A stretch of DNA of 64,000 nt from Chryseobacterium joostei. GTDB taxonomy: Bacteria > Bacteroidota > Bacteroidia > Flavobacteriales > Weeksellaceae. The stretch lies in assembly GCF_003815775.1 (NCBI RefSeq), contig NZ_CP033926.1, positions 434,001 through 498,000 of the forward strand, written 5' to 3'. Under the pieces are notes generated by a model, which made no database searches, had not been told where the DNA came from, and saw only the letters and a program-made list of their open reading frames with translations. This document shows positions 41,885 to 61,211 of the stretch, piece after piece; the first letter of the stretch is position 1, and each line of letters begins with the position of its first letter. Position numbers and translations under genes: made by a program.

Positions 41885-41954
41885 GCGAATTGTAAATCAA
41901 CCCCAGCGAATTGTAAATGGTTCAGCTTTACAATATCTCCTATTTTTAAATTTG
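41885..41954 (+). promoter_or_regulatory. Type A operator-promoter no. 1 (paired 12-mers + TAAATTTG)
   Basis: GCGAATTGTAAA at 41885-41896 and again at 41906-41917 (21 bp apart), then 29 bp, then TAAATTTG at 41947-41954. The direct repeat spaced two DNA turns is what LytTR regulators use; the adjacent LytTR gene at 42905 is the obvious candidate. It drives the ankyrin gene after a 75-nt leader. Confidence 0.8.
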
Positions 41955-42029
41955 AACAAGAGGAATAAACTTCACTAATACAAATAAAAGTGGTTGTAAA
42001 TAAGAAAGTTTGTTTTTAGCTATAAATGA
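41955..42029 (+). other. Conserved leader after type A promoter no. 1
   Basis: Related in sequence to the leaders at 46385 and 57888 (ATAAACTTC...CTAATACA...GTTTGTTTT...ATAAATGA). A stem between AAACTTC and GAAAGTTT is possible with one mismatch. It ends at GTTGGTAAAT (42030-42039), a cassette-type start. Confidence 0.55.
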
Positions 42030-42069
42030 GTTGGTAAATACTTAACCAATTAATTGAAAAATTGACCAT

Positions 42070-42477
42070 ATGAGAGAAGATTTATGTCGACTTATTTTTA
42101 GAAGAGATTTTTATAAGGCAAGAGAACTCATAACCGATACTAATCTTGACTTAAATTTTATAAATACTTTAGAACGAAGTCCTTTATTGCTAGCTACAGG
42201 AGCTGATAATTTAGAATTTGTAGAATATTTGTTAATAAGAGGTGCAGACCCTAATTATATTGATGTTTATATTTTACCTATATCAAATGCCATTGAGAAT
42301 GTAGCATTTAAATTAGACTATTCCAAAGAAGATAGTTTAGATAAAAGAATGGTGAAATTATTATACGATTATGGAGCAAAGGTTGATATTAAAGACAAAT
42401 CTGGAGAAACTGCACTAGATTTTTTATATAGGTATTTTGGTTATGATAATATTGATGATTTTTTACAGAAAAAATAA
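42070..42477 (+). CDS. Ankyrin-repeat protein, possible immunity protein
   Basis: 135 residues, no signal, so cytoplasmic. Two ankyrin repeats are recognisable: RSPLLLATGADNLEFVEYLL with IRGADPNY, and MVKLLYDYGAKVDIKDKSGETALDFL. Ankyrin proteins of this size commonly neutralise toxins delivered by neighbouring cells; no cognate toxin is in view. It follows a type A promoter. Confidence 0.78.
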   Translation: MREDLCRLIFRRDFYKARELITDTNLDLNFINTLERSPLLLATGADNLEFVEYLLIRGADPNYIDVYILPISNAIENVAFKLDYSKEDSLDKRMVKLLYDYGAKVDIKDKSGETALDFLYRYFGYDNIDDFLQKK

Positions 42478-42543
42478 TCTAAAATCAGTCGAAAGAACAA
42501 TCAGTAAATTATACTTTTAATGGAATGTAATGACACAAAACAG

Positions 42544-42607
42544 ATGAAAAAAAATAATCCTATCAATCTTAATTATTATTTTGTTCATATTGCAATATAC
42601 AAAATGA
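42544..42607 (+). pseudogene. Frameshifted signal-peptide remnant
   Basis: ATG at 42544 is followed by a run of eight A. With seven A the frame would read a signal peptide, MKKIILSILIIILFILQYTK, and then stop at 42605-42607. This looks like a secreted-protein cassette worn down to its start. Confidence 0.35.
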
Positions 42608-42639
42608 AAACAAAAATTTAAAATTAGTTTGAAATAAAA

Positions 42640-42790
42640 GCACAATCGCATAACAAAGGTTTATCTCATCTTTATCATCAATTAAACATTAGTCATAAAA
42701 CCAGCTTTTATCGAAGTGTCGGGACAAGTAATGCTTCGATTGAGTTTCGCTGAATTAAGTTTTCTGCACAAGAACAAATCAAAAAATATT
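42640..42790. repeat. Type B element no. 0, degraded
   Basis: Starts with ATCGCATAAC (42645-42654), a cassette-type end, and contains TTAAACATTAGT and GCTTCGATTGAG, shared with the element at 53366-53515. The right half has decayed. No matching GTTATGCGAT start is found upstream. Confidence 0.5.
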
Positions 42791-42800
42791 TCTAAAATTA

Positions 42801-42879
42801 GCGAATTGTAAATCAACTCCAGCGAATTGTAAATCAAACTATCTTGAACTCAAAGCAAGACTAATAATTAATAAATTTG
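42801..42879 (+). promoter_or_regulatory. Type A operator-promoter no. 2, in front of the two-component system
   Basis: 12-mers at 42801-42812 and 42822-42833 (21 bp apart), then TAAATTTG at 42872-42879. Here the gap to the box is 38 bp, about one helical turn more than in the other copies, and the leader to the ATG is 25 nt. This suggests autoregulation of the regulator with a different strength. Confidence 0.7.
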
Positions 42880-42904
42880 CATAATTAATGATTAATCAAC
42901 ACAA

Positions 42905-43651
42905 ATGATTTCAATAGCCATCATAGAAGACGAGCCTGCCATTCGTCAGGAAATAGAATTTCTAATTAAACAAGAACCAGATACACAGCTTTTGGGTTTC
43001 GCAGAAGATGTAAAATCGGCTGTAAAACTTATAGTTACCAAACAGCCCGATGTTTTGCTTATGGATATCCAATTGCGCAACGGTAACGCTTTTGATGTTT
43101 TGAAGTCACTTGACCCGGTTCCACAGCACATTATTTTCATCACCGCTTATAACCAGTTTGCCATCAGAGCCATTAAATACGGTGCATTGGATTATCTGCT
43201 GAAACCTATTGTAAAAGAAGAACTTACCGAAGCCCTGAACCGTTACCGCCGTCGTCGGGATAATAATCCGCATTGGGTACAGCAATTGTTTTTAGCCGAA
43301 CAATCGGTTAGTACTGGCGAATTACCGGCACAGATTGCCATCCATTCGGTTAATACGATGCGTATTGTATCAGTTCAGGAAATTTTGTATTGCAAAGGCG
43401 ATGGTCCCTATACTTTTTTTCACTTGAGCAATGGCGAAAAACATTTGGTATCGAAACCGTTAAAATACTACGAAGAATTGTTGCCTGCACCATACTTTTT
43501 AAGAACACACCAATCTTTTTTGGTTAACCGCGAATACATTATCGGGTTAAAACGTTCTGAAAATCTGCTAATGAAAAATCAGGAAGAAATTCCTGTATCT
43601 ACCAGAAAAAAGAGCTTCATTATGCAACATTTATTACCACACCAATTATGA
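42905..43651 (+). CDS. LytTR-family response regulator
   Basis: 248 residues. The receiver domain has acidic residues in AIIEDEP, the phosphoacceptor Asp in LLMDIQL (residue 54), Thr in FITAY and Lys in LLKPI (residue 100). A linker (105-140) leads to the LytTR DNA-binding domain (about 143-245), with IVSVQEILYCKGDGPYTFFH and FLRTHQSFLVNREYI. Such regulators bind two direct repeats about two DNA turns apart. Nine such sites lie in this island, one directly upstream. Its last 4 bases overlap the kinase start (ATGA). Confidence 0.95.
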   Translation: MISIAIIEDEPAIRQEIEFLIKQEPDTQLLGFAEDVKSAVKLIVTKQPDVLLMDIQLRNGNAFDVLKSLDPVPQHIIFITAYNQFAIRAIKYGALDYLLKPIVKEELTEALNRYRRRRDNNPHWVQQLFLAEQSVSTGELPAQIAIHSVNTMRIVSVQEILYCKGDGPYTFFHLSNGEKHLVSKPLKYYEELLPAPYFLRTHQSFLVNREYIIGLKRSENLLMKNQEEIPVSTRKKSFIMQHLLPHQL

Positions 43652-45555
43652 GATTTCTAAAAATATTTATGCTGTTGTCCATTTTAATTGGTGCCAATAG
43701 TTGTAAAAAGAATGAACCGAAAACCAAACCCGAAACAACACTTTCTAAAGCATTTGACCGCTTGAAAGATAAAAAATTATCTGCTGAAAATGCAGACAGT
43801 TTAAAGACAGCCTGGTTTTCGATTTACAATAATCCCGAGCTAAAGAAAGACACTGTTTTATTTGCAGATGTGAATTATAACATTGCCCGATTTTACGGAA
43901 TGCAAAACAATGACAGTGCCGAGGTTTACGTGAAACGAGCACTGGAAATCATTGAACTTACTGCTACAAATTTGGATTTGAAAGCCCATATTTATATGGG
44001 AATGGGTAATGTTTGCAATCAGAAGGTATTAGAACATCAGGCCAATTATTATTATAACAAAGCCGCTAATATTGTTCTGGCAAACGATACCATCAACATT
44101 AGTCCTAAGGCAAAAACGATAATGCTTTTGGCAGCCGCTCAAAGTAACAAATCGCTCTATCAGTTAGAATTGGCTGTAAAAATGAACCGTGCTGCATTGG
44201 CATTGGTGAACAAACTTGAACCTGGGGATATCAATCGCAGGCGGCCATTAGTGCAACTTGCACAGATTTTTTTGGATTATAAAATGGCAGATAGTGTGCA
44301 GACGTATATTCAAAAAATAGAACAATTAGATAAGGATTTCCCCGGTGCTTATGACCCTGATTTTCTTTATGAAACCAAGGCCAGTTATTATTATTTAAGG
44401 CCAGATTACAAAAATGCTTTAAAATACCACTTACTGAAAAAAGAACTCGATGAAGAGCAGTACAAAAATGAAGGCACAAATCCGGTTCCTGTTAATAACT
44501 ACTATGTTACATTAGTTAATATCGGTGTGTGTTACAACTTGCTGAATGACAATGACAATGCTTTGGCTTATCTAAAAAACGCAGAAAAAGTACAATCGGA
44601 ACACGTAGATTTAATCTCTGCCGAAAATGAAATTCTTTATTACAAAACGCTTTCTAAAATTCAAAAAAACACCAGTAGAATAGGAGAAGCCCTTGCAAGT
44701 ATGGAAAAAGCTTTTGAGGTACAAAATGAAAACAGCTACAACCAGAATATGCAGGCTGTTGCGGAAATGGGCAGTTTGTACCAATTGCAGGCAAAAGATA
44801 ATTTTATTGGTAAGCTAAACGAAAACATAAAAATCAATCAGCTGGAACTAAAGGAAAACCGGCTCTGGCTCATTATTTCTGCACTTGTAGTAGTACTGTT
44901 ACTGCTGTTATTCGCACTAATCTATTACAGAAACAAGCAACAGCGTGACAATCAGGAACGGGAGAAAATTACACTACAACAGCAATTACTAAGAACCCAG
45001 ATGGAACCGCATTTTATCTTCAATACCTTATCGGCTTTGCAAAGTTCTATTCGGTTAGATAAAAAAGAAGAAGCTATAAATTACCTCAGTCGTTTCAGTA
45101 GGTTATTACGAAGTAGCTTAGAGCTAAGCCGAGAACAAACGGTGCCTTTGGGCGACGAAATTGAAGCCCTCGAGAATTATCTGAACCTGCAACAATTGAG
45201 ATTTGAAAATGCGTTCGAATATGAGCTCAACATTCCATTAGAACAAGATATTGAAATGCTGATGTTGCCACCAATGCTCATACAACCTTTCGTAGAAAAT
45301 GCCATTATCCACGGTATCGACTTGGGCAATGCCAATGCAAAAATTACTTTAAATTTTGAATTAAACAACAACTTATTGACCGTTCAAATTGCAGATAGTG
45401 GCAAGAAAGGCAATGTTTCTAATGCTATTCCGGGCACATCACTTTCGGGCACTATTACCAAAGAACGTATCCGATTATTAGGCAAAAATGCGAGTGTAGA
45501 AATCCATCAGAATGAAAAAGGTGGCACAACGGTGGTGTTGAACATACCGATATAG
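43648..45555 (+). CDS. LytS-like sensor histidine kinase with TPR domain and lipobox-like N-terminus
   Basis: 635 residues. The signal sequence ends in GANSC (Cys19), a lipobox-like site, so the sensor part may be lipid-anchored as well as held by one membrane helix (about 405-430). Between lie TPR-like repeats (about 60-395), which probably sense a peptide or partner protein. The cytoplasmic part is a His_kinase (PF06580-type) domain with EPHFIFN (His455) and an ATPase domain with LIQPFVENAIIHG and LLGKNASVEIHQNEKGG. It should phosphorylate the LytTR regulator encoded just upstream. Confidence 0.93.
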   Translation: MRFLKIFMLLSILIGANSCKKNEPKTKPETTLSKAFDRLKDKKLSAENADSLKTAWFSIYNNPELKKDTVLFADVNYNIARFYGMQNNDSAEVYVKRALEIIELTATNLDLKAHIYMGMGNVCNQKVLEHQANYYYNKAANIVLANDTINISPKAKTIMLLAAAQSNKSLYQLELAVKMNRAALALVNKLEPGDINRRRPLVQLAQIFLDYKMADSVQTYIQKIEQLDKDFPGAYDPDFLYETKASYYYLRPDYKNALKYHLLKKELDEEQYKNEGTNPVPVNNYYVTLVNIGVCYNLLNDNDNALAYLKNAEKVQSEHVDLISAENEILYYKTLSKIQKNTSRIGEALASMEKAFEVQNENSYNQNMQAVAEMGSLYQLQAKDNFIGKLNENIKINQLELKENRLWLIISALVVVLLLLLFALIYYRNKQQRDNQEREKITLQQQLLRTQMEPHFIFNTLSALQSSIRLDKKEEAINYLSRFSRLLRSSLELSREQTVPLGDEIEALENYLNLQQLRFENAFEYELNIPLEQDIEMLMLPPMLIQPFVENAIIHGIDLGNANAKITLNFELNNNLLTVQIADSGKKGNVSNAIPGTSLSGTITKERIRLLGKNASVEIHQNEKGGTTVVLNIPI

Positions 45556-45584
45556 TAGATAATTTTTGTTATTGAAACAATAGG

Positions 45585-45983
45585 ATGAAAAGCAAATTAA
45601 GAAAAATAACCATCAACAATTTGATTTATTTGTATGTTGTAACCGATAAGTATCATCACCAAACTTCAACAAATACGCTGACCATAAAAATATTCTTAGC
45701 TGGGCATAAGCAAACCCCATTGATTATTGATTTTTTAACATTAGACCATATTTATATGGGGCAAGTTTTAAAGTCGGGAATTAAGATGTATAACTATAAT
45801 CGTAGTGAGGAAGAAATTGTAAATCTTAATGAGCCAAAATACATTCGTGAGCTTATTCTTTTGGGCAGAGCAAAAGGATGGGAGGGAGCCAATAAAGTCG
45901 AAAAACAAAATGGGCTTCATTATTTGGAAACATTAGGCTATGATGTCAACATTTTATTGCCAATTGAAAAAGCTATTGAATAG
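45585..45983 (+). CDS. Hypothetical protein in the two-component operon
   Basis: 132 residues, no signal peptide. YLYVVTDKYHHQTSTNTLTIKIFLAGHKQTPLIIDFLT suggests a beta-rich N-terminal half, and LLGRAKGWEGANKVEKQNGLHYLETLGYD a helical C-terminal half. I do not recognise the family. It begins 29 bp after the kinase and 11 bp before the next gene, so it belongs to the same transcript. Either an accessory or an immunity-type protein is possible. Confidence 0.65.
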   Translation: MKSKLRKITINNLIYLYVVTDKYHHQTSTNTLTIKIFLAGHKQTPLIIDFLTLDHIYMGQVLKSGIKMYNYNRSEEEIVNLNEPKYIRELILLGRAKGWEGANKVEKQNGLHYLETLGYDVNILLPIEKAIE

Positions 45984-45994
45984 TGTCATAAAAA

Positions 45995-46309
45995 ATGAAA
46001 AAAGTAATAATTCTTCTCTTTGTCGTTTCACTTGTAGCAACCGCTTCAATTGTGTTACAAACCATTAATCATAGCGAAATTGTCATTACTAATTATGATG
46101 GATATTATAACAGCCAATGGCAAGAAAAAATAAAAAACAGTTCTGATGTTTCTTATTTAAAAGCCGAAGCATTAAAGTTAAAAGCCGAAAACAGAGGACG
46201 GAGAAATGATAAAAACAGTTTGATGCTAAATATATGCCTCAAAACATCGGTTTTATTCCTGATACTCTTTGCTACAATGCTTTGTTTTCTATTTTATAAA
46301 AAGAAGTAA
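45995..46309 (+). CDS. Small protein with two membrane segments
   Basis: 104 residues. Hydrophobic segments at about 3-22 and 82-101 flank a polar middle (about 25-80) with a charged helix KAEALKLKAENRGRRND. It may be anchored at both ends with the middle facing the periplasm. It is the last gene before type A promoter no. 3, which begins 5 bp after its stop. Confidence 0.65.
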   Translation: MKKVIILLFVVSLVATASIVLQTINHSEIVITNYDGYYNSQWQEKIKNSSDVSYLKAEALKLKAENRGRRNDKNSLMLNICLKTSVLFLILFATMLCFLFYKKK

Positions 46310-46314
46310 TTCTT

Positions 46315-46384
46315 GCGAATTGTAAACCAACCCCTGCGAATTGTAAATGGTGAGCAGTAGAAAACATCAATAGTTATAAATTTG
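46315..46384 (+). promoter_or_regulatory. Type A operator-promoter no. 3
   Basis: 12-mers at 46315-46326 and 46336-46347, 29 bp, TAAATTTG at 46377-46384. The base before the second 12-mer is T and not A, the only difference in the spacer. Confidence 0.8.
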
Positions 46385-46458
46385 AAAATTAGAAATAAAC
46401 TTCGCTAATACAGCTAAAATCGGGTGGATAAGCGAAGGTTTGTTTCGCTTATAAATAA
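46385..46458 (+). other. Conserved 74-nt leader after type A promoter no. 3
   Basis: CTTCGC (46400-46405) pairs with GCGAAG (46432-46437). Almost identical to the leader at 57888-57961 and exactly the same length. It ends at GTTGTGCGAT, the cassette start. Confidence 0.65.
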
Positions 46459-47111
46459 GTTGTGCGATATGCCTCAATCAACATCCTGTATAAATTGAAA
46501 CGACACAAAAAACAAATGAAAACTTTAACCTTATCAACCTTAATTACTTTTATATTCTTTTTCCAATCTTGTGGACAAGCACCAAAAGCTATTGAAGTAA
46601 ATCAAACTAAAATTAAAGACAATAAATACACCTTCAATAATTCTGTTACCGTTGAAGATATAAAAAACATTCAGCAAGTTCCGTATATAGCAAATTGCAA
46701 TGACACTATTTTTTGGAGTTTAGTAAAACAAGGAAAAGATAACATTCCTAGTTTAATAGATAAATTAACAGATGAAACTGTTTTAAATGATGTTTATGTC
46801 CCAATGTTTGGCGGAAAATACACAGTTGCCGATGTAGCTTTGACAATTTTAAATGAAAAAATAAAGGACATTCCAATTTTTGAGTTGATAGGACAAAAAT
46901 TTAGTGAAGATTGCGGATATTGTACTTATTGGTATTTCGTGAGGGAAAGCAAAAATAACAGACGGTTTTTACAGAAAAATTTAAAAAAATGGTATCAAGA
47001 AAACGAGAATAAATTAATTTGGGTTCAATCTGAAAATTCATTAACTGGTGATTGTTTTTCTCCAGTGTAGGGACATTATGAAATTAAGTAAAATAAGCAC
47101 AATCGCACAAC
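46459..47111 (+). mobile_element. Putative gene cassette 1 (GTTGTGCGAT ... ATCGCACAAC)
   Basis: The 10-bp end 46459-46468 is the exact reverse complement of 47102-47111. Between them lies one gene (46516-47070). The GTT...AAC polarity is the same as in cassettes 2-4 and as in integron cassettes. Confidence 0.6.
46516..47070 (+). CDS. Lipoprotein of a widespread but unnamed Bacteroidota family
   Basis: 184 residues from ATG 46516. The longer reading from 46462 would start in the cassette end and is rejected. The lipobox FFQSCG (Cys about residue 15) predicts an envelope lipoprotein. PSLIDKLTDETV, VPMFGGKYTVADVALTIL and FSEDCGYCTYWYFVRESKNNR give a compact helical domain with a Cys-rich pair (CGYC). 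Relatives with the same phrases are common near toxin-immunity islands, as far as I recall. The function is unknown. Confidence 0.75.
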   Translation: MKTLTLSTLITFIFFFQSCGQAPKAIEVNQTKIKDNKYTFNNSVTVEDIKNIQQVPYIANCNDTIFWSLVKQGKDNIPSLIDKLTDETVLNDVYVPMFGGKYTVADVALTILNEKIKDIPIFELIGQKFSEDCGYCTYWYFVRESKNNRRFLQKNLKKWYQENENKLIWVQSENSLTGDCFSPV

Positions 47112-47233
47112 ATAGTATTGCCAAAAGCGGGGCGAAACTGCAAAGTTCAACGGCAGTTCTTCGATTTAATTTTTATGCAAAATTGAAGATTTTCGCTTCG
47201 ATTGCCCCACCATCGCCAAGCCCCAAAACGTTG
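47108..47233. repeat. Type B palindromic element no. 1 (126 bp)
   Basis: CAAC at 47108 and GTTG at 47230 bound an imperfect palindrome. The left half has AGCGGGGCGAAACTGCAAAG, the right half TTCGATTGCCCCACCATCGC, with mismatches and a central AT-rich loop. On one strand it would fold into a long hairpin, as attC sites do. Confidence 0.65.
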
Positions 47234-48261
47234 GTGGCAATTTTCCGGCCGACCGCTAACAGACGAAACACTGACACTTAATGAAAATTGATTTTCAAAG
47301 AAGTTACTTAATAAATCAATAAATTTTAAAATTAACCAAATAAGACTAACGCCAAAAGACCAAATGAAGATAAGCCAATTAATATTTTTCTTAAATTTTT
47401 TATTGTTATTTACATCTTGTAATGGACAAACCAATGAACAATCAAAAAATATAGATTTCGTAATTACAAATGATTATATGTCTGAAAGAAACCTTTCTTT
47501 TATGGGCGGACCTATGCCGTCAAATTATAAAAAAGGGATTATTGACAGTTTGGGAAATTGTTTTGTTGAACGATATGATAACAACAACAATATTGTTGAA
47601 GAAAAATATTACAATAAAATTGGTGCATTGTATCATACCAATAAAAATTTTTATGACATTAAAAACCGAATAGAAAAAGCAGTTGAAATCGACGAATTTA
47701 ACAATGACACTTGCGTGGTTAAATATCAGTATACAGATAGTTTGAATTTGGTAACCCACAGACGTGTAACCTCATCTTGCAAAGAAGATTTTTTAGATTT
47801 TTATTATAAGTACAATGAGAAAGGCATAAAAACAGAAGAGTTACTGAAAGAAAATAATGTTTTTATTCGGAAAAAAGCAATTCAGGATATTTCTAAAAAT
47901 GAAAAATTAATAAAATCCTATGACACCGAAAATCGCCTGTCAACTTATGTGTACAAGTACAATGAAAAAGATTTATTAGTCTATGAAAAACGTAGAGAAT
48001 GGGACTATGTAATAAAAGGAGATTATTTTGAAACAGGACAGGAAAACGAAATTTTGTATAAATATGACAAAAACGGCAATTGGATAGAACGAACCACACA
48101 AACTTATTGTTTGCCCGTAAAACATAAACCAACAAAAAAAACAAATAAAGAAGAACCACCAAAAGTAAAAGAAATTGGAGTGTACAATTCGGAAAATTGC
48201 ACTCCAGAAATTAAGGAAAAACTGATTAGAAAGATATACTATAAATAAAACTGCCACCAAC
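47230..48261 (+). mobile_element. Putative gene cassette 2 (GTTGGTGGCA ... TGCCACCAAC)
   Basis: 47230-47239 is the exact reverse complement of 48252-48261. It encloses one lipoprotein gene (47364-48248). Its own promoter is not evident, so transcription must come from upstream. Confidence 0.62.
47364..48248 (+). CDS. Lipoprotein with C-terminal YKYDKNGNWIERT repeat
   Basis: 294 residues. The lipobox LFTSCNG (Cys19) predicts an envelope lipoprotein. The body is a run of beta-strands with Tyr/Asp/Asn-rich repeats (YNKIGALYHTN, YKYNEKGIK, YKYNEKDLL, YKYDKNGNWIERTTQTYC), resembling the YD/RHS-type strand repeats of surface proteins. The last repeat, GNWIERTT plus RKIYY, also closes the protein at 58016-58663, so the two are paralogues in that part. 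Role unknown; a surface decoy or immunity protein is possible. Confidence 0.72.
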   Translation: MKISQLIFFLNFLLLFTSCNGQTNEQSKNIDFVITNDYMSERNLSFMGGPMPSNYKKGIIDSLGNCFVERYDNNNNIVEEKYYNKIGALYHTNKNFYDIKNRIEKAVEIDEFNNDTCVVKYQYTDSLNLVTHRRVTSSCKEDFLDFYYKYNEKGIKTEELLKENNVFIRKKAIQDISKNEKLIKSYDTENRLSTYVYKYNEKDLLVYEKRREWDYVIKGDYFETGQENEILYKYDKNGNWIERTTQTYCLPVKHKPTKKTNKEEPPKVKEIGVYNSENCTPEIKEKLIRKIYYK

Positions 48262-48384
48262 AAGGGTTTTGCAATAGTGGGGCGAAACTGCAAAGTTCAA
48301 CGGTATTTATTCGGTTCAACTTTTGTACAAAATTGAAGATTTGTGCTTCGATTGCCCCCACCATCGCCAAGCCCCGAAACGTTG
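48258..48384. repeat. Type B palindromic element no. 2 (127 bp)
   Basis: CAACAAGGGTTTTGC on the left answers CGCCAAGCCCCGAAACGTTG on the right, with GGGGCGAAACTGC and GTGCTTCGATTGCCCCC inside. The element is about 80% like no. 1 by eye. It includes AAATTGAAGATTTGTGCTTC, shared with nos 3 and 6. Confidence 0.65.
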
Positions 48385-48917
48385 CCTGCTATGCTATGAT
48401 CGACACTTTAAAAATGGAACAAACTGACGACATCGACATATTACTGACACTAAATCCTCACGGTTGGAGTACTTGCTTTTTGGTTGACAAAGGAAAGGCT
48501 TATGAATTTACGATTACTCACGTTTTTAGCGACCCATACTTTGATTTAATTCAGGTATTGACAAGCCTAATTAACGGACAGAAGTTTGCAACTCTTTTTT
48601 GGTATGGAGAACCAGGTGGACATCGCTTTGAATTTACGACACAACACGACATTATATTAGTTTCAGTGGACGAATTTGGGGAGACTTTTGACGAAGAGCC
48701 AAAATTGTGTCAATTAATGTTTTTATTTGAAATAAAACTGAAACAACTGATTACCATTTTCTATTTGCAACTGCAAAAGACACGAATTTTGTTGTTGGAC
48801 AAAAATTTTGCAGAAAATAGAGAACGGGATTTTCCATTTCAAGAATTTCATAAATTTGAAAGACTTGTAAAGCAATTTTTGGATTTATAAACTGGGTGAA
48901 AAAGCACAGCAGGCAAC
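48381..48917 (+). mobile_element. Putative gene cassette 3 (GTTGCCTGCT ... AGCAGGCAAC)
   Basis: 48381-48390 is the exact reverse complement of 48908-48917, and the match continues for four further bases after one mismatch. It contains one gene (48414-48890). Confidence 0.62.
48414..48890 (+). CDS. Hypothetical protein in cassette 3, immunity-like
   Basis: 158 residues from ATG 48414. An upstream reading from 48333 starts inside the palindrome and is rejected; 48396 is an alternative. No signal, so cytoplasmic. LNPHGWSTCFLVDKGKAYEFTITHVFSDPYFDLIQVLTSL and LFWYGEPGGHRFEFTTQHDIILVSVDEFGET give a beta-rich body like that of small immunity proteins. The family is not one I recognise by name. Confidence 0.65.
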   Translation: MEQTDDIDILLTLNPHGWSTCFLVDKGKAYEFTITHVFSDPYFDLIQVLTSLINGQKFATLFWYGEPGGHRFEFTTQHDIILVSVDEFGETFDEEPKLCQLMFLFEIKLKQLITIFYLQLQKTRILLLDKNFAENRERDFPFQEFHKFERLVKQFLDL

Positions 48918-49060
48918 AAGGGTTTTGCAATAGTGTTGCGAAACTGCAAAGTTCAACAGTTGTTCTTCGTTTGAACTTTTGTGCAAAATTGAAGATTTAT
49001 GCTTCGATTTAGCTCCTCCTAACTATGTCTCCCGCCCGAATGAAAATCCCGAAAAGTTTC
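48914..49060. repeat. Type B element no. 3, right half diverged
   Basis: The left half (CAACAAGGGTTTTGCAATAG, GCGAAACTGCAAAGTTCAAC) matches element no. 2. The right half keeps GAAGATTTATGCTTCGATTT but then diverges and lacks the GTTG end. It is followed directly by type A promoter no. 4, so the junction is probably a rearrangement. Confidence 0.55.
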
Positions 49061-49068: not shown

Positions 49069-49138
49069 GCGAATTGTAAACCAACCCCAGCGAATTGTAA
49101 ATAGCCAGATCTTTTAAAACCCAATATTTTTAACTTCC
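49069..49138 (+). promoter_or_regulatory. Type A operator-promoter no. 4, degenerate -7 box
   Basis: 12-mers at 49069-49080 and 49090-49101, 29 bp, then TAACTTCC at 49131-49138, which keeps TAnnTT but loses TG. The spacing matches, so the site is probably real but weak. TATTTTTA (49125-49132) is an alternative box. It is followed after 34 nt by a TTG start. Confidence 0.65.
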
Positions 49139-50914: not shown

Positions 50915-50984
50915 GCGAATTGTAAACCAAGCCCAGCGAATTGTAAATGGTGAAACTTTGCAAAAAACAATGTAATTAAATTTG
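50915..50984 (+). promoter_or_regulatory. Type A operator-promoter no. 5
   Basis: 12-mers at 50915-50926 and 50936-50947, 29 bp, TAAATTTG at 50977-50984. The spacer reads CCAAGCCCA, one base different from the common form. Confidence 0.8.
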
Positions 50985-51056
50985 ATTAAGTGAAACAAGC
51001 TCTGCCAATATACTAAAATGGCGGTATTTGCGCAGGTTTGTTTCAGATATAAACAC
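50985..51056 (+). other. Conserved leader after type A promoter no. 5
   Basis: Diverged form of the leader with AATATACTAAAATGGCG and GGTTTGTTTCAGATATAAAC. CTGC and GCAG could close the stem that CTTCGC/GCGAAG forms in other copies. It ends at ATTGGTAGTA (51057-51066). Confidence 0.5.
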
Positions 51057-52570: not shown

Positions 52571-52625
52571 ACTACCGCCAATAAAGGGGGCACTAGTGGG
52601 GCGAAACTGCAAGGTTCAATTCTTT
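52571..52625. repeat. Type B element no. 4, truncated left half
   Basis: ACTACCGCCAAT (52571-52582) is followed by GGGGCGAAACTGCAAGGTTC, then type A promoter no. 6 starts. Only the left arm remains, so element and promoter appear to have been joined by a deletion. ACTACCGCCAAT is nearly the complement of ATTGGTAGTA at 51057. Confidence 0.55.
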
Positions 52626-52630: not shown

Positions 52631-52700
52631 GCGAATTGTAAACCAACCCCAGCGAATTGTAAATGGTGGTAATTTGCAAAGGCGGAAAGTAATACATTTG
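52631..52700 (+). promoter_or_regulatory. Type A operator-promoter no. 6
   Basis: 12-mers at 52631-52642 and 52652-52663, 29 bp, TACATTTG at 52693-52700. Confidence 0.8.
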
Positions 52701-52762
52701 AACTTTAGTAATAGACATTCGCCAATACATTCAGAATTGGATGAATATGCGCTATTTTATAA
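52701..52762 (+). other. Short conserved leader after type A promoter no. 6
   Basis: 62 nt instead of 72-75; keeps CGCCAATACATTCAG and ATGCGCTATTTTATAA. It ends at GTTAGCGGAAATGCC, a cassette-type start without a recognised partner. Confidence 0.45.
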
Positions 52763-53365: not shown

Positions 53366-53515
53366 GCTGTTAACACAAGGGTTTTGCATCATGCGGGCTG
53401 AAGTGCAAAATTCAACATTAGTTTTTCATTTAAACATTAGTAATAAAATCAGTTTTTGTGCTTCAATTTAGCTTCGCTGAACTAGGTCTTCCGCCTGAAA
53501 ACAAAGTCCTAAAAT
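53366..53515. repeat. Type B element no. 5, variant
   Basis: TTAACACAAGGGTTTTGCAT and GCGGGCTGAAGTGCAAAATT open it; TTAAACATTAGTAATAAAAT and TGCTTCAATTTAGCTTCGCTGAAC close it. It differs from nos 1-2 but shares words with nos 0 and 8, so it belongs to the same family. Confidence 0.5.
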
Positions 53516-54437: not shown

Positions 54438-54878
54438 ATGATAAAAGCCTACATCAATAATCAGGAACTATCGGCCGATGCGTTGCATTATGACCAGTGG
54501 TTTTACAAAAAATACAATGAAAATAAGGCGGTTTATAACTTCAGTATAATAATTCCGTATGATGATTTTGTACAAAAGCTGAAACCAAATTATGAGCAAC
54601 TCATAGAAGAACTCACGGAGGATGACCGCTTGCACAACGAGAATTTCTTTCTTGACAGCTATGGTATTTCGGATTATCCGTTTTTTGAAGAGGTAATAAA
54701 AAATGCAGAGGAAGAAAACTATAAAATTGATTTTTTATCTTCATTTTTTGCTGAGCAAATTTTCAGTACCTATGTCAATACAAAATCGGCAGATAAATGG
54801 ATTATCAGGAAACTTACCAAAATTGATAATGACGGGAAAGAGGTTTTTATAAACGACGAAGTACAACAAATGGATTGA
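54438..54878 (+). CDS. Hypothetical cytoplasmic acidic protein
   Basis: 146 residues, acidic, no signal. IKAYINNQELSADALHYDQWFYKKYNEN and KNAEEENYKIDFLSSFFAEQIFSTY. Small acidic cytoplasmic proteins in such islands are often immunity proteins, but that is inference. The next gene starts 1 bp after its stop. Confidence 0.62.
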   Translation: MIKAYINNQELSADALHYDQWFYKKYNENKAVYNFSIIIPYDDFVQKLKPNYEQLIEELTEDDRLHNENFFLDSYGISDYPFFEEVIKNAEEENYKIDFLSSFFAEQIFSTYVNTKSADKWIIRKLTKIDNDGKEVFINDEVQQMD

Positions 54879-54879
54879 T

Positions 54880-55383: not shown

Positions 55384-55433
55384 AAAGTTAGCAAAACGTA
55401 TCACAACCAATGGACTGAAATTTCATTTTTCAA

Positions 55434-55503
55434 GCGAATTGTAAATGAACCCCAGCGAATTGTAAATGGTAGCAATTTGTAAAAGCTACTATTTTTAAAT
55501 TTG
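55434..55503 (+). promoter_or_regulatory. Type A operator-promoter no. 7
   Basis: 12-mers at 55434-55445 and 55455-55466, 29 bp, TAAATTTG at 55496-55503. The leader downstream has diverged but keeps GATACAAATGCTATT and GGATATGAATAAAT. Confidence 0.8.
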
Positions 55504-55627
55504 AATAACGCAAAATAATAGTGCTGATACAAATGCTATTGAAGGTATATACGCTAGTGAGTAGCGGATATGAATAAATGGGATGATATTATTTAATAAC
55601 CCAAACAAAGACAGTAAAAAAATATAA

Positions 55628-56236: not shown

Positions 56237-56355
56237 GGCACTAATGCTTAAAAATTTTGTCAAAACCGGCACTAAATTTCTTCGCTTTACCTTTTCTGCA
56301 TAATTGAAGATTTGTGCTTCGATTTTCCCGCCCGAACACAAAGCCCAAAACATTA
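56236..56355. repeat. Type B element no. 6, degraded
   Basis: Keeps TAATTGAAGATTTGTGCTTC and GATTTTCCCGCCCGAACACA, as in nos 2 and 3. The left arm has lost the GGGGCGAAACTGC part. Confidence 0.5.
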
Positions 56356-56378
56356 TATACTTTTTTAAACAGAGATTT

Positions 56379-57152
56379 ATGCAAATACAACCATTAACAT
56401 CAAATCAATCGCACAACGAAATTTTATTTGAAAGTTTTGTTATCGAAAATCTCAATTCTTTTGATGAATTAATTGAAGTTTATCAGACCTACAAACAAAA
56501 TCATCCTGACAAGACAATAATTTTGACACTTGACGATTTAGGACAAGCTGAATATACCAGTGGACATTCAATTTACGCAAATGACCTTGACGAAACAGAA
56601 GGTTATGATTTATCAGGACTAGACAAAACCTGTTTTGAAAATGGCGAACATTTGGGCTATCTTTCAACCCCGTCTGAGTTTTTCATCAGAAAGGAAAACT
56701 TCCTCAAACAAACAAAAGGTATTGACTTCAAATCTGTATGCGATAAAGAATTAACAATTGATGAAGACGAAATTTCAATTTTAGAGAATATTAATCAGTC
56801 GCCATTTGAATATTTAGACGACCAAATAATTCTTAAAATCGTTCCAGTTGAAAAATCATACGAAGCAATGTGCGGATTTCCAAACGGATACTTTGAAAGC
56901 GACCTAAATCCTTTTGAAAACTACGCTTTAGCTAAGCATCTCTTTGAAAATTACAATTTTGAACTTTTTGGAATTGGTGCTTCGTTTTTAGGTTTTATAA
57001 GAAATGGAAATTTAGAAGAAAATAGAGTAAAAGCGTTAATTACTGACTTGTCAAAATTGTACAGCACAACCGAAAATACATTTGACAAATTGGCTGGGGT
57101 ATTTAAAAATCAAAATTATTTGTTTTTAAAATACATTGAATATTTGGAATAA
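56379..57152 (+). CDS. Hypothetical cytoplasmic protein
   Basis: 257 residues from ATG 56379. A longer reading from 56304 would begin in the palindrome and is rejected. It is acidic with several beta-rich parts (IILTLDDLGQAEYTSGHSIYANDLDE; YEAMCGFPNGYFESDLNPFENYALAKHLFENY). The second half resembles DUF4253-like immunity proteins (FP.GY...D.NP.E...L.++L...Y), but I hold this loosely. Confidence 0.62.
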   Translation: MQIQPLTSNQSHNEILFESFVIENLNSFDELIEVYQTYKQNHPDKTIILTLDDLGQAEYTSGHSIYANDLDETEGYDLSGLDKTCFENGEHLGYLSTPSEFFIRKENFLKQTKGIDFKSVCDKELTIDEDEISILENINQSPFEYLDDQIILKIVPVEKSYEAMCGFPNGYFESDLNPFENYALAKHLFENYNFELFGIGASFLGFIRNGNLEENRVKALITDLSKLYSTTENTFDKLAGVFKNQNYLFLKYIEYLE

Positions 57153-57223
57153 TAAAAAAAGCCACCTTCAGCAATACCAAAACCTTTGGCAGTAATGCTT
57201 TTGAAGCCCCTGTTAAGAAAATT

Positions 57224-57763
57224 ATGTATAAAAAAATTCCGCAAAACATTCAATCTATTTTAGACGATTTACATTGTCCGATTTTGCTTAACCGCCATTT
57301 AATTTTGGTTTACAATTTAGGATTAGATTTAACCGAAAAGATAATATTTGAGTTTCCAACTTTAAGGCTTCTTACCGATGAAATCGTATTTGGAACTGCA
57401 ACACACGACATAGGAAAGATTATAGAAAAAAATGAATTAAGAGAAAAGGGAAAGCAACACGAGCAAACCGGTTACAAAATTTTGATGGATTATGGCATTA
57501 AAGAGAATTTGGCCCGTTTTACAATAACTCACGGAGATTGGGAAAATGAAAATTTAGCCATTGAAGACTTAATAGTTACTTTAGCAGACAAAATTTGGAA
57601 GGGACAAAGAATTGACAAACTCGAAGAAAAAGTTATTGCAGAAATTTCTAAATTGACAAATATCGATTATTGGACAGTTTATTTAAAAATAGATAATATT
57701 ATATCTCAAATTATCAATGGTTCTGACAAGAGACTGAATTGGCAAAACAACTTTGAAATTTAG
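57224..57763 (+). CDS. HD-domain phosphohydrolase
   Basis: 179 residues. Metal ligands of the HD fold are in order: His in LNRHLILVYN, HD in ATHDIGKI (about residue 63), His in KQHEQTGYKIL and a distal Asp in TLADKIWKG. Reading in frame backwards from the ATG gives KKATFSNTKTFGSNAFEAPVKK without a stop for more than 20 codons, so an upstream start or an earlier fusion is possible. It hydrolyses a phosphate ester or nucleotide; the substrate is unknown. Confidence 0.82.
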   Translation: MYKKIPQNIQSILDDLHCPILLNRHLILVYNLGLDLTEKIIFEFPTLRLLTDEIVFGTATHDIGKIIEKNELREKGKQHEQTGYKILMDYGIKENLARFTITHGDWENENLAIEDLIVTLADKIWKGQRIDKLEEKVIAEISKLTNIDYWTVYLKIDNIISQIINGSDKRLNWQNNFEI

Positions 57764-57838
57764 CACTATTGCCAAAAAGGGTTTACCTTCGGTGAGGGCT
57801 TTGCCGTTTGTGTCAAGCTGGCTAAAGTTTAAAAACTA

Positions 57839-57887
57839 GCGAATTGTAAATGGTGAACGGTAGAAAACACCAATTGTTATACATTTG
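57839..57887 (+). promoter_or_regulatory. Type A promoter no. 8, one 12-mer only
   Basis: Only the proximal GCGAATTGTAAA (57839-57850) is present; the place of the distal one (57818-57829) has unrelated sequence. 29 bp later TACATTTG lies at 57880-57887. It has lost the distal site, perhaps by the same event that joined it to the HD gene. Confidence 0.65.
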
Positions 57888-57961
57888 ACTTGCAGTAATA
57901 AACTTCGCAAATACAGCTAAAATAGTGTGGATAAGCGAAGGTTTGTAGCGCATATAAATAA
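57888..57961 (+). other. Conserved 74-nt leader after type A promoter no. 8
   Basis: CTTCGC (57903-57908) and GCGAAG (57935-57940) form a stem at the same offsets as in 46385-46458. It ends at GTTAGCGGTA. Confidence 0.65.
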
Positions 57962-58677
57962 GTTAGCGGTAATTTTGCAGAACCGATAAACAACCAAATG
58001 ATGAATAAAATAAAAATGAAAAAATGTCTTATAATTATTTTAAGTTTCTTATGTCTTTCAGCTTGTTCACAGACAAAGTCTGAAACTGATAAACCAAAAC
58101 ACTTTTTAAGTGATGATGCTTTGGAGTTCGACTTAATAGATAAAATAAAAAAGGTAGATTGGATTGTTATAGACTCTACAATTGCAGGAAATGATGGCGA
58201 AAATTATAAAGGATATTACAAAGGAACAATAGATTCAGTTAAACTCTTGTATGACAAGAAATTCAAATTAATACAATCCGATTTAGTAAGCAGAAGTATC
58301 CAAACATATGCTGAAGATGGCAATGGAAAAATTGTATTTAAAAATGAAAAACTATTGTTGGATACATTTTCTAATATCAAATATGAGGATATAAATAATT
58401 TCACATACAGAATGTTGATTAAGAATAATAAATTGGTTGACTCGCTCTGGATTCATAGAATTTATTATAATAAAAACGGAGATATAAAAGAGGCTCAAGT
58501 TTTGGACAAAGAGTTTTATCATAGAAAGAAAATGACCGAAAAAATAGAGTTTAAATATAAATACGATGAAAAAGGAAATTGGATAGAGAGGACTACAATT
58601 TCTGGTCCAGAAAACGAAAGGTCGGTAACACAGATAGATATTAGAAAGATTGAATATCAATAAAAACTACCGCTAAC
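57962..58677 (+). mobile_element. Putative gene cassette 4 (GTTAGCGGTA ... TACCGCTAAC)
   Basis: 57962-57971 is the exact reverse complement of 58668-58677. The same end recurs at 59118-59127 after a second gene. Contains 58016-58663. Confidence 0.6.
58016..58663 (+). CDS. Lipoprotein with C-terminal YKYDEKGNWIERT segment
   Basis: 215 residues from ATG 58016 (57998 and 58001 are also in frame). The lipobox LSACSQ (Cys about 17) predicts an envelope lipoprotein. The C-terminal FKYKYDEKGNWIERTTI and RKIEYQ are shared with the lipoprotein at 47364-48248. The N-terminal part is different. The shared domain suggests module exchange between cassettes. Confidence 0.72.
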   Translation: MKKCLIIILSFLCLSACSQTKSETDKPKHFLSDDALEFDLIDKIKKVDWIVIDSTIAGNDGENYKGYYKGTIDSVKLLYDKKFKLIQSDLVSRSIQTYAEDGNGKIVFKNEKLLLDTFSNIKYEDINNFTYRMLIKNNKLVDSLWIHRIYYNKNGDIKEAQVLDKEFYHRKKMTEKIEFKYKYDEKGNWIERTTISGPENERSVTQIDIRKIEYQ

Positions 58678-58692
58678 GAGGGTTTTACGTCA
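58667..58692. repeat. Type B fragment (no. 7), cassette end only
   Basis: CTACCGCTAAC followed by GAGGGTTTTACGTCA. The same string with two changes lies at 59117-59142, so gene 58699-59112 is bracketed by direct copies. Confidence 0.55.
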
Positions 58693-58698
58693 AAAAAA

Positions 58699-59112
58699 AT
58701 GAAAAAAATTGTAATTAGATTTTGGATAATTAATTTGTTAATAAGCATTATATTGTTTGTAGCTTATAGAATTGCTATTTCTCAAACGGAGACAATTAAT
58801 GGAAATTCATTTGAAAAATGGATACAGTTTTTTGAACTATTATTAAACTTTGGTTTTTCGTTTTTTTACTTTATTGCTATGATTATTTTTTCTTTTGCAA
58901 TTCTTCTAAATCTTATAAAAAAAGTAAGGAATAAATTATATTTATCGTTTTTGACATTTTTAGGATTACCATCAATTTGTATTATTTATATGATTTTTAC
59001 GGAGTTGATTAATTTCCAAATGCTTAATTTTTTTTCGGTAATCTATATATTTATTATGACGATACAATTTTTAATGTTTAGAAAAATAATTGAAAAAACA
59101 CGAAGTGAATAA
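58699..59112 (+). CDS. Integral membrane protein, four predicted helices
   Basis: 137 residues, very hydrophobic, with segments at about 6-28, 43-70, 80-100 and 108-128 and no signal peptide. It starts 35 bp after the previous stop, right after a cassette-end motif. Function unknown. Confidence 0.62.
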   Translation: MKKIVIRFWIINLLISIILFVAYRIAISQTETINGNSFEKWIQFFELLLNFGFSFFYFIAMIIFSFAILLNLIKKVRNKLYLSFLTFLGLPSICIIYMIFTELINFQMLNFFSVIYIFIMTIQFLMFRKIIEKTRSE

Positions 59113-59116
59113 AAAA

Positions 59117-59220
59117 CTACCGCTAACAAGGGTTTTGCGTCAGGCGGGCTGAAGTGCAAAATTCAACAGCATTAATTCTATAGACCTTTGTGCGAAATTT
59201 AACAGTAATGCTTCGATATT
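59117..59220. repeat. Type B element no. 8
   Basis: CTACCGCTAACAAGGGTTTT, GCGGGCTGAAGTGCAAAATT and TGTGCGAAATTTAACAGTAA with TGCTTCGAT; no GTT-type right end, so it is partly decayed. Confidence 0.5.
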
Positions 59221-59279
59221 GTCATTATCATAAATAACGAAATTAATGTTGAAAAACCATTTTAATCCTGAAGAGATAT

Positions 59280-60026
59280 ATGGAAAAAAATTTTACAAAA
59301 GACTATATTGAGTTTTCTAATGAATTCAGAAAATCTAACGCTTCTAAAGAAAGTATTGATAAATTATATGATTTATTATACGATTTAGAAAATTCTAAAA
59401 GAACTGCTAATGATAATTTAATCCTCTCAAATGTTTATAGCTTATTGGGTTTTCATTTATCAGCTTACGAGGTTTTTAAATCTGTAGCAGATTTGATTGA
59501 TAAAAAAACAACTTCAAAACTTTATCTGATGGAAGAAAAGGCAAAATCACACAAAAATAATTTTGCTATAAAGGATATCAGAAAGTTTAGACAGAAAAAC
59601 GAACAAACAAAACTTTCAATAACTGATTTTGTAAAATCCGAAAGAGGAGATAATACATTTACAATTATTGAAAAAGAAGTTGTTGTGTTCAATAAAATCG
59701 TAGAAAACAAAAAAATACAAATTTCAATCTACGGAAATCACAAGATTGAAGATTATGCTAACAAAATAATTGACTATATTTTTTTGTTAGGCGACTGTAA
59801 AATTGAACTGATAGAATTTTATAATAATGAATTGAGCGAAGTAACAGAAGAAACAGCAAACAACAATTGGTATGACACGTTAGAAATTTTAAGTGTAAAT
59901 ATTGGTGTTGCAGTCAATGGGAATTTATTCGCTGAAATTTCAGCAGGAGATGATTTTGCACCAGACCATATTCTTGATATCGAAATGGATGAACAAAAAG
60001 TAACAGAAATGAACTACGACGGATAA
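59280..60026 (+). CDS. Hypothetical protein with DUF2004-like C-terminus, possible immunity protein
   Basis: 248 residues. The N-terminal half (1-120) is helical with a TPR-like segment. The C-terminal half reads IYGNHKIEDYANKIIDYIFLLG, NNNWYDTLEILSVNIGVAVNGNLFAEISAGDDFAPDHILDIEMDEQ, a pattern (W-Y...hydrophobic strand...DHILDIEM) like DUF2004-type immunity domains. I am not certain of the family. No signal, so cytoplasmic. Confidence 0.6.
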   Translation: MEKNFTKDYIEFSNEFRKSNASKESIDKLYDLLYDLENSKRTANDNLILSNVYSLLGFHLSAYEVFKSVADLIDKKTTSKLYLMEEKAKSHKNNFAIKDIRKFRQKNEQTKLSITDFVKSERGDNTFTIIEKEVVVFNKIVENKKIQISIYGNHKIEDYANKIIDYIFLLGDCKIELIEFYNNELSEVTEETANNNWYDTLEILSVNIGVAVNGNLFAEISAGDDFAPDHILDIEMDEQKVTEMNYDG

Positions 60027-60111
60027 AAAATCGCCAATGAGGATTTGATTTATAGCCGTTATTCAGCAAAGCATCTAAATAAATTTTCAATACGATATCA
60101 TACCAAACCAA

Positions 60112-60666
60112 ATGGAAGAAATCATTCAAAAATTAGACAAATATTTATCGACATTAAGGCCTGAATATTATTCAGAACTTAATGAACCTTTGAACGACAC
60201 GCAATTAGATAAATTAGAAGAATATTATAAAATTGAAATCCCAAAAGATTTACGAACGCTATACCTGTGGAAAAACGGGCAAAACCCCAACTGTTATGAG
60301 GCGTTTGTGAATAATTCTTGTTTTATTCCTTTGCATCAAGCCCTTTATGACGCTTCTGAACTTACATCGATGATTGGGTTCGATTTCGAAATCGAAAATT
60401 GGTGGAACGAAAACTGGATACCCATTTTTCAAAATGGAGGTGGCGACAGTATTTGTTATGACCTAAAAGGAATTTTTACGGAACAAAAAGGGCAATTAAT
60501 AGAATTTTGGCACGCCGACAACGACCGAAATGTAATTGCACCAACATTAGAAACTTTTTTCCGCAAAATTGTAGACTTTTATGAAACCACCCCAAAAGAT
60601 GCATTTGATGAATATTTTCAAATTGAAAAAATTGAAAACTATCCAAAGAAATTCATTTTAGACTAA
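60112..60666 (+). CDS. SMI1/KNR4 (SUKH) family protein, probable immunity protein
   Basis: 184 residues. ELNEPLNDTQLDKLEEYYKIEIPKDLRTLYLWKNGQN is a classic SMI1/KNR4 opening, WIPIFQNGGGDSICYDLKG is the conserved core strand and IEFWHADNDRNVIAPTLETFFRKIVDFYE follows. Family knowledge: many SUKH proteins neutralise polymorphic toxins. No toxin is seen here, so it would be an orphan immunity gene. It follows the DUF2004-like gene by about 85 bp. Confidence 0.85.
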   Translation: MEEIIQKLDKYLSTLRPEYYSELNEPLNDTQLDKLEEYYKIEIPKDLRTLYLWKNGQNPNCYEAFVNNSCFIPLHQALYDASELTSMIGFDFEIENWWNENWIPIFQNGGGDSICYDLKGIFTEQKGQLIEFWHADNDRNVIAPTLETFFRKIVDFYETTPKDAFDEYFQIEKIENYPKKFILD

Positions 60667-60686
60667 CCGAGAAATCACTACTGCCA

Positions 60687-61116
60687 ATGAAATCAAAAAT
60701 AAGACGGCATATTCTAAAAGCACTAAGCACCGAAATTGTTGGAGCCTTGGCGTTATTTGTATTTTTTTATACGCTATTTTTTAATCTAAAGGAAACTATT
60801 GAAATTTTCAAATGGTGTGGAACATCTATTGTTTTTGGTTGTAACGCCAGTTTTGGTTTGGCTTGGTTTGTACCAAATTGGCTATCGGCTTTTCGCCCTT
60901 TTAAAAAATATTTTGGCGTTATTATCATTTTCGGTCTGTTGATAGTCGGTATCATTGCAGCCACATTGTTTCTGGGGTTTAGCGATAATGCCGACATTAA
61001 TGGCATTTCTAGTATTTTCAGCATTATATTGTTTTTTTTTACTATTTGGCGGTGTACCAACTTTGCTGGTAGGGCTTTGGCTTGGAAATAGGTTAAAGCA
61101 ATTAAACCCTAAATAG
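60687..61116 (+). CDS. Integral membrane protein, frame broken at a T9 tract (probable frameshift)
   Basis: As written the gene runs 60687-61091 (134 residues), with membrane segments at about 15-30, 42-65, 74-96 and 108-120, and a tail IWRCTNFAGRALAWK that does not look natural. With eight T instead of nine at 61032-61040, the frame would continue as LLFGGVPTLLVGLWLGNRLKQLNPK and stop at 61114-61116, a credible last helix and basic tail. Either an inactivating change, a phase-variable tract, or a sequencing error. Confidence 0.6.
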
Positions 61117-61141
61117 GAGAGTGGTATTGGTTCATAATCCA

Positions 61142-61211
61142 GCGAATTGTAAACCAACCCCAGCGAATTGTAAAAGGTTCTGTTATCCAATTCCATCAAT
61201 TAATAGTTTTG
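61142..61211 (+). promoter_or_regulatory. Type A operator-promoter no. 9
   Basis: 12-mers at 61142-61153 and 61163-61174, 29 bp, TAGTTTTG at 61204-61211. It has no long leader; the ATG is 33 nt away, as for promoters 2 and 4. Confidence 0.8.

Follow-up and report, generated by a model that had tools for sequence, protein, structure and literature searches.

Introduction

The general view of integrons is that a single promoter, located at a single attI site, serves most cassettes. Here we describe an island of Chryseobacterium joostei in which captured genes appear behind many copies of one apparently inducible operator-promoter; a gene captured there would join the regulon at once. The island lies in a stretch of 64,000 nt (the window; positions 434,001 to 498,000 of the forward strand of contig NZ_CP033926.1, RefSeq assembly GCF_003815775.1) and contains genes for a LytTR response regulator and its kinase.

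As far as the available parts of PMC4847170 and PMC6193735 describe them, the LytTR regulons of AgrA, YpdB and HdrR/BrsR resemble the island in their paired direct repeats of 21-bp period just upstream of the promoter, in a regulator gene behind its own copy of the site and in a LytS-like kinase partner. The island differs in having nine copies in one place, a Bacteroidota −7 box and changing cassette genes as targets, and its repeat reads TTTACAATTCGC on the other strand. Chromosomal integrons and clusters of attC sites lacking integron-integrases (CALINs), as presented in the accessible text of PMC9024848, share with it a promoter with an attI-like site, tandem cassettes in one orientation and attC-like hairpins with cassette-specific complementary ends. 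In contrast to these, the island has several attI-like sites, each behind a predicted regulated promoter, and no integrase in its genome, while its relatives have an integrase without the IntI extra domain, with integrase and attI in the same orientation (locus L098; L and G numbers are our labels for loci and genomes). In the Vibrio cholerae superintegron, where integrase and cassette promoters are co-regulated (PMC3948777, in the part available), a cassette promoter is likewise under host regulation, but the island is predicted to be regulated by a dedicated two-component system within it and has several attI-like sites.

For Bacteroidetes, the available part of PMC9024848 relates that the first survey by the IntegronFinder authors returned only integrases without cassettes and the second a complete integron in Salinibacter, and the accessible text of a 2008 survey reports intI genes in the Bacteroidetes/Chlorobi group (PMC2426708). 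Among the matches listed, neither a LytTR-controlled integron nor such a Bacteroidota attI/attC set is described in open-access titles and abstract beginnings. Our comparison points to integron-like systems across Bacteroidota. The best reading of the island itself is a LytTR regulon that has grown by capturing integron cassettes behind several copies of its own operator-promoter, with binding, regulation and recombination all predicted.

Results

The exact 12-mer GCGAATTGTAAA occurs 17 times in the window, always on the + strand, between 41885 and 61174, and these copies form eight doubles (N9 spacer, 21-bp period) and one half site (Table 1). When up to two mismatches were allowed, 25 matches were found, the eight non-exact ones having two mismatches each; shuffled sequences gave a mean of 10.7 and a maximum of 23 matches at this setting. 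All eight exact doubles of the 4.89-Mb genome, searched with up to three mismatches, lie inside the island, with one further double outside it that has two mismatches (C1:1056147), and the reversed pattern of the double had no match in the whole genome. These scans bear out the original observation of nine type A sites, eight of which consist of two exact 12-mers 21 bp apart. Plasmid searches with 46315-46480 and with 42800-46000 gave no match.

A TAnnTTTG box starts exactly 29 bp after the second 12-mer (+29) at seven sites (41885, 46315, 50915, 52631, 55434, 61142 and the half site 57839), as had been stated, and we also recovered the weaker box TAACTTCC at 49069 and the box distance of 38 bp at 42801. 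The box occurs 100 times in 128,000 positions (window, both strands). Mean pairwise identity among the eight doubles is 100% in the 12-mers and 83% in the N9 spacer; among seven doubles, with 42801 left out, it is 79% in the next 4 bp (TGGT), 45% in the next 25 bp and 80% in the box. Clear TTG −33 elements had been described as absent; 50915, 52631 and 55434 do have a TTTG, but it begins 20 bp ahead of the box, nearer than is usual for a −33 element. An independent count of the open reading frame (ORF) list gave the same figure as before, about 27 genes behind the sites.

A second locus of the same genome, L020 (G000:C1:1047000-1066000), holds a divergent operator-promoter pair, 9180(−) and 10403(+). 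Both sites have TAAATTTG exactly at +29 and would drive genes for small exported proteins, and weak attC-like matches are found close by (6391-6334 and 8611-8548).

The regulator and kinase match PF00072, PF04397 and PF06580, all above the Pfam cut-off. We compared the genome of the window (G000) with sets of 118 genomes from the genus, 320 from the family and 395 from the phylum Bacteroidota. The double motif with up to two mismatches is present in 4/118 genus genomes (G000, G033, G064 and G117), and the regulator ortholog (E<=1e-60) in the same four, the listing of genomes that lack the ortholog being incomplete. Gene and motif are never more than 8 kb apart in these four, and with genomes treated as independent such an overlap has a probability of 1.3e-7. 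In the genus set, the search of related genomes that had been proposed as a check found the motif only together with the regulator. Six of the 320 family genomes carry the ortholog, the new ones being G260 and G169, which is outside the genus sample and has three sites beside the regulator. In the phylum set, G476 (same class, other order) carries a 55% ortholog and, 1.9 kb away, a site with two mismatches and no consensus box at +29.

The regulators are 55-68% and the kinases 46-49% identical between genomes; the G476 kinase matches in two pieces (43 and 48%). There, the kinase gene beside the regulator (L039 16754-18688, − strand) is read in two frames of 416 and 220 residues and is either broken or affected by a sequencing error. 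Wherever the motif occurs clustered, the LytTR pair adjoins it. The placement of the LytTR gene behind its own copy of the site also holds: the double at 42801 precedes the gene, and degenerate equivalents were seen by eye upstream of the regulator gene in G033, G117 and G169. In G033, a double site directly follows the regulator and kinase genes, and operons of small membrane and exported proteins come behind further sites. The repeats of a fourth G033 site (L013 7065-7096) are 20 rather than 21 bp apart with TACTTTTG still 29 bp behind, and its G117 and G169 counterparts have the 21-bp spacing.

TAnnTTTG lies exactly at +29 in 8/12 sites outside the island with up to three mismatches, a count that excludes five rows with four mismatches, none of them boxed at +29; the eight are not independent cases because the G033, G117 and G169 sites are partly orthologous, and two belong to the genome of the window. 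A motif-free scan for repeats spaced 21 bp apart and then a box returned chiefly these same sites. According to the available parts of the papers, a LytTR site consists of paired 9-11-nt repeats separated by 11-13 nt (PMC4847170), one class of LytTR systems has a strong bias to 10 bp upstream of −35 (PMC6193735), and the flavobacterial box spans −12 to −5 (PMC9723704), which places the operator end near −42. With a period of 21 bp, within the range of about 20-24 bp, and 29 bp to the box, the predicted operator is in activator geometry.

The co-occurrence of motif and regulator, the recurring +29 geometry and the published site architecture support the nine modules as the regulon of the LytTR system, as originally proposed, with binding itself predicted. 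That proposal is nevertheless incomplete: five modules run on into an attI-like site, and several of the intervening genes are integron-like cassettes.

The stretch behind the 46315 box matched 12 of 45 chosen genomes by BLAST (its own included), 8 of them at E<1e-3; at the limit used, E 0.05, about two chance matches are expected. In L098 and L099 the attI-like module follows the stop codon of an integrase gene (347 residues) at a distance of 16 bp, and in L106 and L100 it lies 25-26 bp behind an integrase reading frame, the L106 match being weak (17.7 bits) and the L100 frame only 72 residues long. A held-out model built from six non-window sites, themselves first found with the window query, recognized five positions on the + strand of the window, all of them preceded by a module (41951, 46381, 50985, 52708 and 57900), together with reverse-strand echoes of four of the five; nothing was found in the reversed window. 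An attI-like site with a promoter before the first cassette, as in integrons, is therefore recognized by this model at 5/9 modules, one of them weakly. The site ends in GTT and matches the end of the first cassette at 10/10 positions in L098, L100 and L104 and at 46458 and 57961 of the window: GTTGTGCGAT of module 3 pairs with 47103-47112, and GTTAGCGGTA of module 8 pairs 10/10 with TACCGCTAAC at both 58669 and 59119.

TAnnTTTG is located upstream of 12/13 chosen non-window copies of the attI-like site, which suggests that promoter and landing site are an old unit. The double 12-mer precedes 0/13 of these copies, one of which has a single 12-mer with three mismatches, versus 4/5 window copies, the fifth having a half operator before it. 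Thus, the operator appears to be an addition, so far seen only here. No attI- or attC-like matches were detected in L018, L019, L033 and L035, which hold the sites of G033, G117 and G169. An RNA element in the leader was rejected as a candidate, as no Rfam family matched 41000-62500 at gathering scores.

Several attI-like sites in a row occur elsewhere too: L104 (G675) has three tandem promoter-attI-like modules at 9447, 10517 and 11156 with shared upstream sequence and without the LytTR operator. The integrase of L112 (G101:C2:38321-39361) shares 68% identity with that of L098, and behind it lies a palindromic site with ATATAAACAAGTTAGCGG at its end. This site escapes the attI model, so attI seems to diverge with its integrase.

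Integron cassettes each carry their own complementary cores. Repeats of up to about 150 bp are present between the island genes, and at four places an ORF or ORF pair is flanked by a GTT-initial 10-mer and its exact complement ending AAC. Since the 10-mer differs at each of the four places and each adjoins an attC-like repeat, these ORFs look like integron cassettes. A first-pass test for any repeated GTT-initial 9-mer was too permissive (21 pairs in the 22.9-kb island, 23 in a 39-kb control), and site-anchored tests were used instead. Complementary cores were found in 9/28 tests on loci from other genomes, two of the nine being the window's own repeat, versus 8/560 when words were exchanged among the loci. 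Profile models showed the ends of adjacent cassettes to match at 9 or more of 10 bases in 20/28 cases (four in the window; 16/24 without it) versus 74/2022 non-adjacent pairs.

An attC model built without the window rows recovered all seven known window repeats and one weak match elsewhere (E 0.095). When closed with its own cassette start, the attC-like repeat folds into one long imperfect hairpin (z −2.1, 3/200 shuffles as good). An imperfect palindrome with R″/R′ cores complementary within one cassette, as in attC, is thus present. The repeat is found in 39/395 Bacteroidota genomes (own included) and 28/170 genera, of which about four matches are expected by chance at the limit of E 0.01 per genome. 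The same genome has a second cluster of three attC-like repeats, without the LytTR operator, in L109 (G000:C1:220000-235000; 4491, 6614 and 7550). Over 30 kb in L102 and L103 (G707:C2:146000-176000), 16 attC-like repeats share one orientation and follow an integrase-like gene whose reading frame is in pieces; this Bacteroidota genome apparently contains a large chromosomal integron.

A relative of the L098-type integrase is present in 20/118 genus genomes. Five of ten integrase loci from these genomes have an attC-like repeat within their 1.5-kb flanks, in four cases 0.8-0.9 kb upstream and in the opposite orientation. TIGR02249-like integrase genes lie within 8 kb of attC-like repeats in 6/15 genomes searched (G262, G037, G707, G354, G395 and G675); all are below the cut-off, and those of G354 and G395 are fragments only. 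Against a TIGR02249 cut-off of 265 bits, L098 scored 204.6 and L101 210.4 bits, each in two stretches, and the L098 integrase scored 218.6 bits with NF040815 (cut-off 220). Its alignment with IntI4 (2a3v) breaks between IntI4 positions 181 and 246, which we take to be the place of the IntI extra domain.

The cargo is mostly unconserved, in contrast to the regulator and kinase, in the regions that we fetched and compared. Only two cargo ORFs have a relative there: the 61245 ORF (28% over 79 residues, E 1e-6; weak homology in a separate check) and the 53661 ORF (35% over 80 residues, in the second locus of its own genome). Pfam domains among the cargo are ankyrin, GNAT, HD and SMI1/KNR4, and an NCBIfam scan of 20 island proteins left 18 without a match and two with matches below the cut-off only. 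The distance from the kinase gene to the 61245-type gene is 1.4 kb in G033 and 15.7 kb in the window, and the attI-bearing modules 46315, 50915, 52631 and 57839 are all within this 15.7-kb gap.

Table 1. Predicted features of the island (window coordinates; held-out, score with a model built without the window)
Position	Strand	Feature	Evidence
41885..41917	+	double 12-mer operator (predicted LytTR site), module 1	motif scans
41947..42034	+	−7 box TAAATTTG and attI-like site, module 1, diverged	41.8 bits (in training set); held-out 11.4 bits, E 0.012
42070..42477	+	ankyrin-repeat protein, module 1 cargo	Pfam
42801..42833	+	double 12-mer before regulator gene (predicted autoregulation), box 38 bp downstream, without attI-like part	
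42905..43651	+	LytTR response regulator, receiver and LytTR domain	Pfam PF00072, PF04397; orthologs
43648..45555	+	sensor kinase (His_kinase, PF06580; TPR repeats) paired with the regulator	Pfam; adjoins regulator in other genomes too
46315..46347	+	double 12-mer operator, module 3	motif scans
46375..46462	+	−7 box and attI-like site ending GTT, module 3	BLAST query for other genomes; held-out 53.7 bits
46459..47112	+	cassette 1 (ORF listed 46462-47070), ends GTTGTGCGAT / ATCGCACAAC	
47109..47232	+	attC-like repeat (type B)	106.8 bits; held-out 89.5
47230..48262	+	cassette 2 (ORF 47364-48248), ends GTTGGTGGCA / TGCCACCAAC	
48259..48383	+	attC-like repeat (type B); with the ends of its own cassette added, folds as a long imperfect hairpin	
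48381..48918	+	cassette 3 (ORF listed 48333-48890; start inside cassette required), ends GTTGCCTGCT / AGCAGGCAAC	
48915..49011	+	attC-like repeat, 3′ part diverged	85.8 bits; held-out 76.9
49069..49101	+	double 12-mer operator without attI-like site; TAACTTCC at +29	
50915..50947	+	double 12-mer operator, module 5	
50978..51055	+	attI-like site, module 5	45.8 bits (in training set); held-out 23.6
52590..52624	+	attC-like remnant directly before module 6	15 bits; held-out 13
52631..52663	+	double 12-mer operator, module 6	
52710..52752	+	partial attI-like site, module 6	18.9 bits; held-out 15.1; in neither training set
53375..53469	+	truncated attC-like repeat	74.6 bits; held-out 68.3
55434..55466	+	double 12-mer operator, module 7; attI-like part alignable, too degenerate for either model	
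56276..56350	+	attC-like repeat, 3′ part	43.1 bits; held-out 41.0
57839..57850	+	single 12-mer (half operator), module 8	
57878..57966	+	−7 box and attI-like site, module 8	held-out 43.9 bits
59125..59218	+	truncated attC-like repeat	64.1 bits; held-out 62.2
60112..60666	+	SMI1/KNR4 (SUKH) protein, cargo	Pfam
61142..61174	+	double 12-mer operator without attI-like site	
61245..62045	+	membrane-anchored protein (by sequence), distant homologue of L018:17155-18012 in G033	

Discussion

Judged from sequence comparison, the nine modules are probably the operators and promoters of one LytTR regulon, and five modules continue into an attI-like site with cassette-like genes behind it. Captured genes would then be expressed whenever the regulon is on. 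Domain content suggests that the kinase would phosphorylate the LytTR regulator on a signal. A regulator dimer may then bind the two 12-mers, which lie 21 bp apart on one face of the helix, as co-occurrence and geometry suggest. The site ends 29 bp before TAnnTTTG, just upstream of the −33 region, in the position of LytTR activators, from which the regulator would activate transcription that crosses the attI-like site and covers one or several cassettes as well as ordinary genes. The matched ends suggest integron-type recombination at the GTT of the attI-like sites as the route of cassette entry; the integrase responsible is not found in the genome now. The 1.4-kb gap of G033 corresponds to 15.7 kb here, a distance that holds cassette modules, so the ancestral regulon probably grew from within.

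The island can thus be described as a cluster of integron-like cassettes without an integrase, whose putative entry points are several attI-like sites linked to one predicted LytTR operator. We also consider it fairly likely that a two-component system took over an integron to yield a signal-inducible cassette platform with multiple entries, and that the attI/attC/integrase set represents a widespread Bacteroidota integron class whose integrase lacks the IntI extra domain and which current finders largely miss.

Besides the chance matches, partial orthology and origin of the training sites given with the respective counts, several findings weigh against these interpretations. No integron integrase was found in the genome of the window at E<=1e-50, and the highest-scoring TIGR02249 match there, a Xer-like protein, does not reach the cut-off; the island can therefore be no more than a CALIN that has attI-like sites. 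The IntI-specific additional domain is missing from the L098 and L101 integrases of the relatives. Modules 42801, 49069 and 61142 have no attI-like part, neither model finds an attI-like site at 55434, module 57839 has only half an operator, and the held-out match at 41951 is weak. The attI-like site does not match the first cassette in L099 and L110, which are among the 8/28 adjacent cassette ends that do not match. On the side of the regulator, a 63% ortholog in G260 and a 45% ortholog in G052 (phylum sample), both outside the genus, have no motif near the gene, and 4/12 outside sites lack TAnnTTTG at +29.

Part of this evidence would also fit a plain LytTR regulon, in which the stretch behind the box is a 5′ untranslated region, the repeats are ordinary and no cassettes were captured. 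No attI- or attC-like parts accompany three of the modules or the G033, G117 and G169 sites, and no integrase was found in this genome. In other genomes, however, that stretch immediately follows integrase genes, and cassette ends agree far more often than in the control, which makes this explanation unlikely. It is less likely still that the modules are a repetitive or selfish promoter element, recently copied, whose identity reflects youth rather than regulation. The N9 spacer is indeed more alike (83%) than the 25 bp after TGGT (45%); however, the sequence from operator to box has diverged while all 12-mers are exact, and the motif is tied to the regulator gene across genomes.

Two further explanations accept the repeats as binding sites but assign them to another protein. 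AraC-type proteins also use direct repeats about two turns apart, and an AraC-like TPR-HTH regulator with a Pfam HTH_18 domain is encoded at 39811-41478, 0.4 kb from the first module. Conservation of this gene with the motif, which an AraC-type regulon would lead one to expect, is not seen: no homologue (E<=1e-4) was found in the fetched regulator regions of G117, G169, G064 and G476, and the one in G033 is only 40% identical over 99 residues and is encoded on the opposite strand, some 11 kb past the last site, whereas it is the LytTR pair that adjoins the clustered motif. We therefore rejected the AraC-like protein as the binder and regard its involvement as very improbable. A similarly small chance is left, slightly below that of the AraC-like protein, to the direct repeats being accessory integrase-binding repeats of attI, such as DR1/DR2 of attI1, rather than an operator. 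The repeats do precede attI-like sites at five places in the window, once as a half, but the pair is absent upstream of 13/13 chosen other attI-like sites and occurs beside the regulator in genomes and modules without an attI-like site; on these grounds integrase-binding arms were rejected.

Additional observations

The attC-like repeat family travels with resistance regions. In the Empedobacter falsenii plasmid p1681-tetX (L123, NZ_CP040909.1), attC-like repeats at 3001-3124 and 458-581 lie beside lnu(H) and near mef(C), mph(G) and tet(36). The repeat is also matched by 47 Acinetobacter plasmids, over 55% of its length at 76% identity among the matches listed. An anti-phage island was considered and rejected: with 10 of the cargo proteins (about 27 in all) as input, PADLOC matched an SMI1/KNR4-like model (PDC-M40A) and, weakly, HD domains. 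Upstream of the modules, the window encodes a small peptide, MKNLKKISRDQLKEVKGSQKICPQGS... (39093-39248, + strand), which resembles bacteriocin-like leader peptides of Chryseobacterium.

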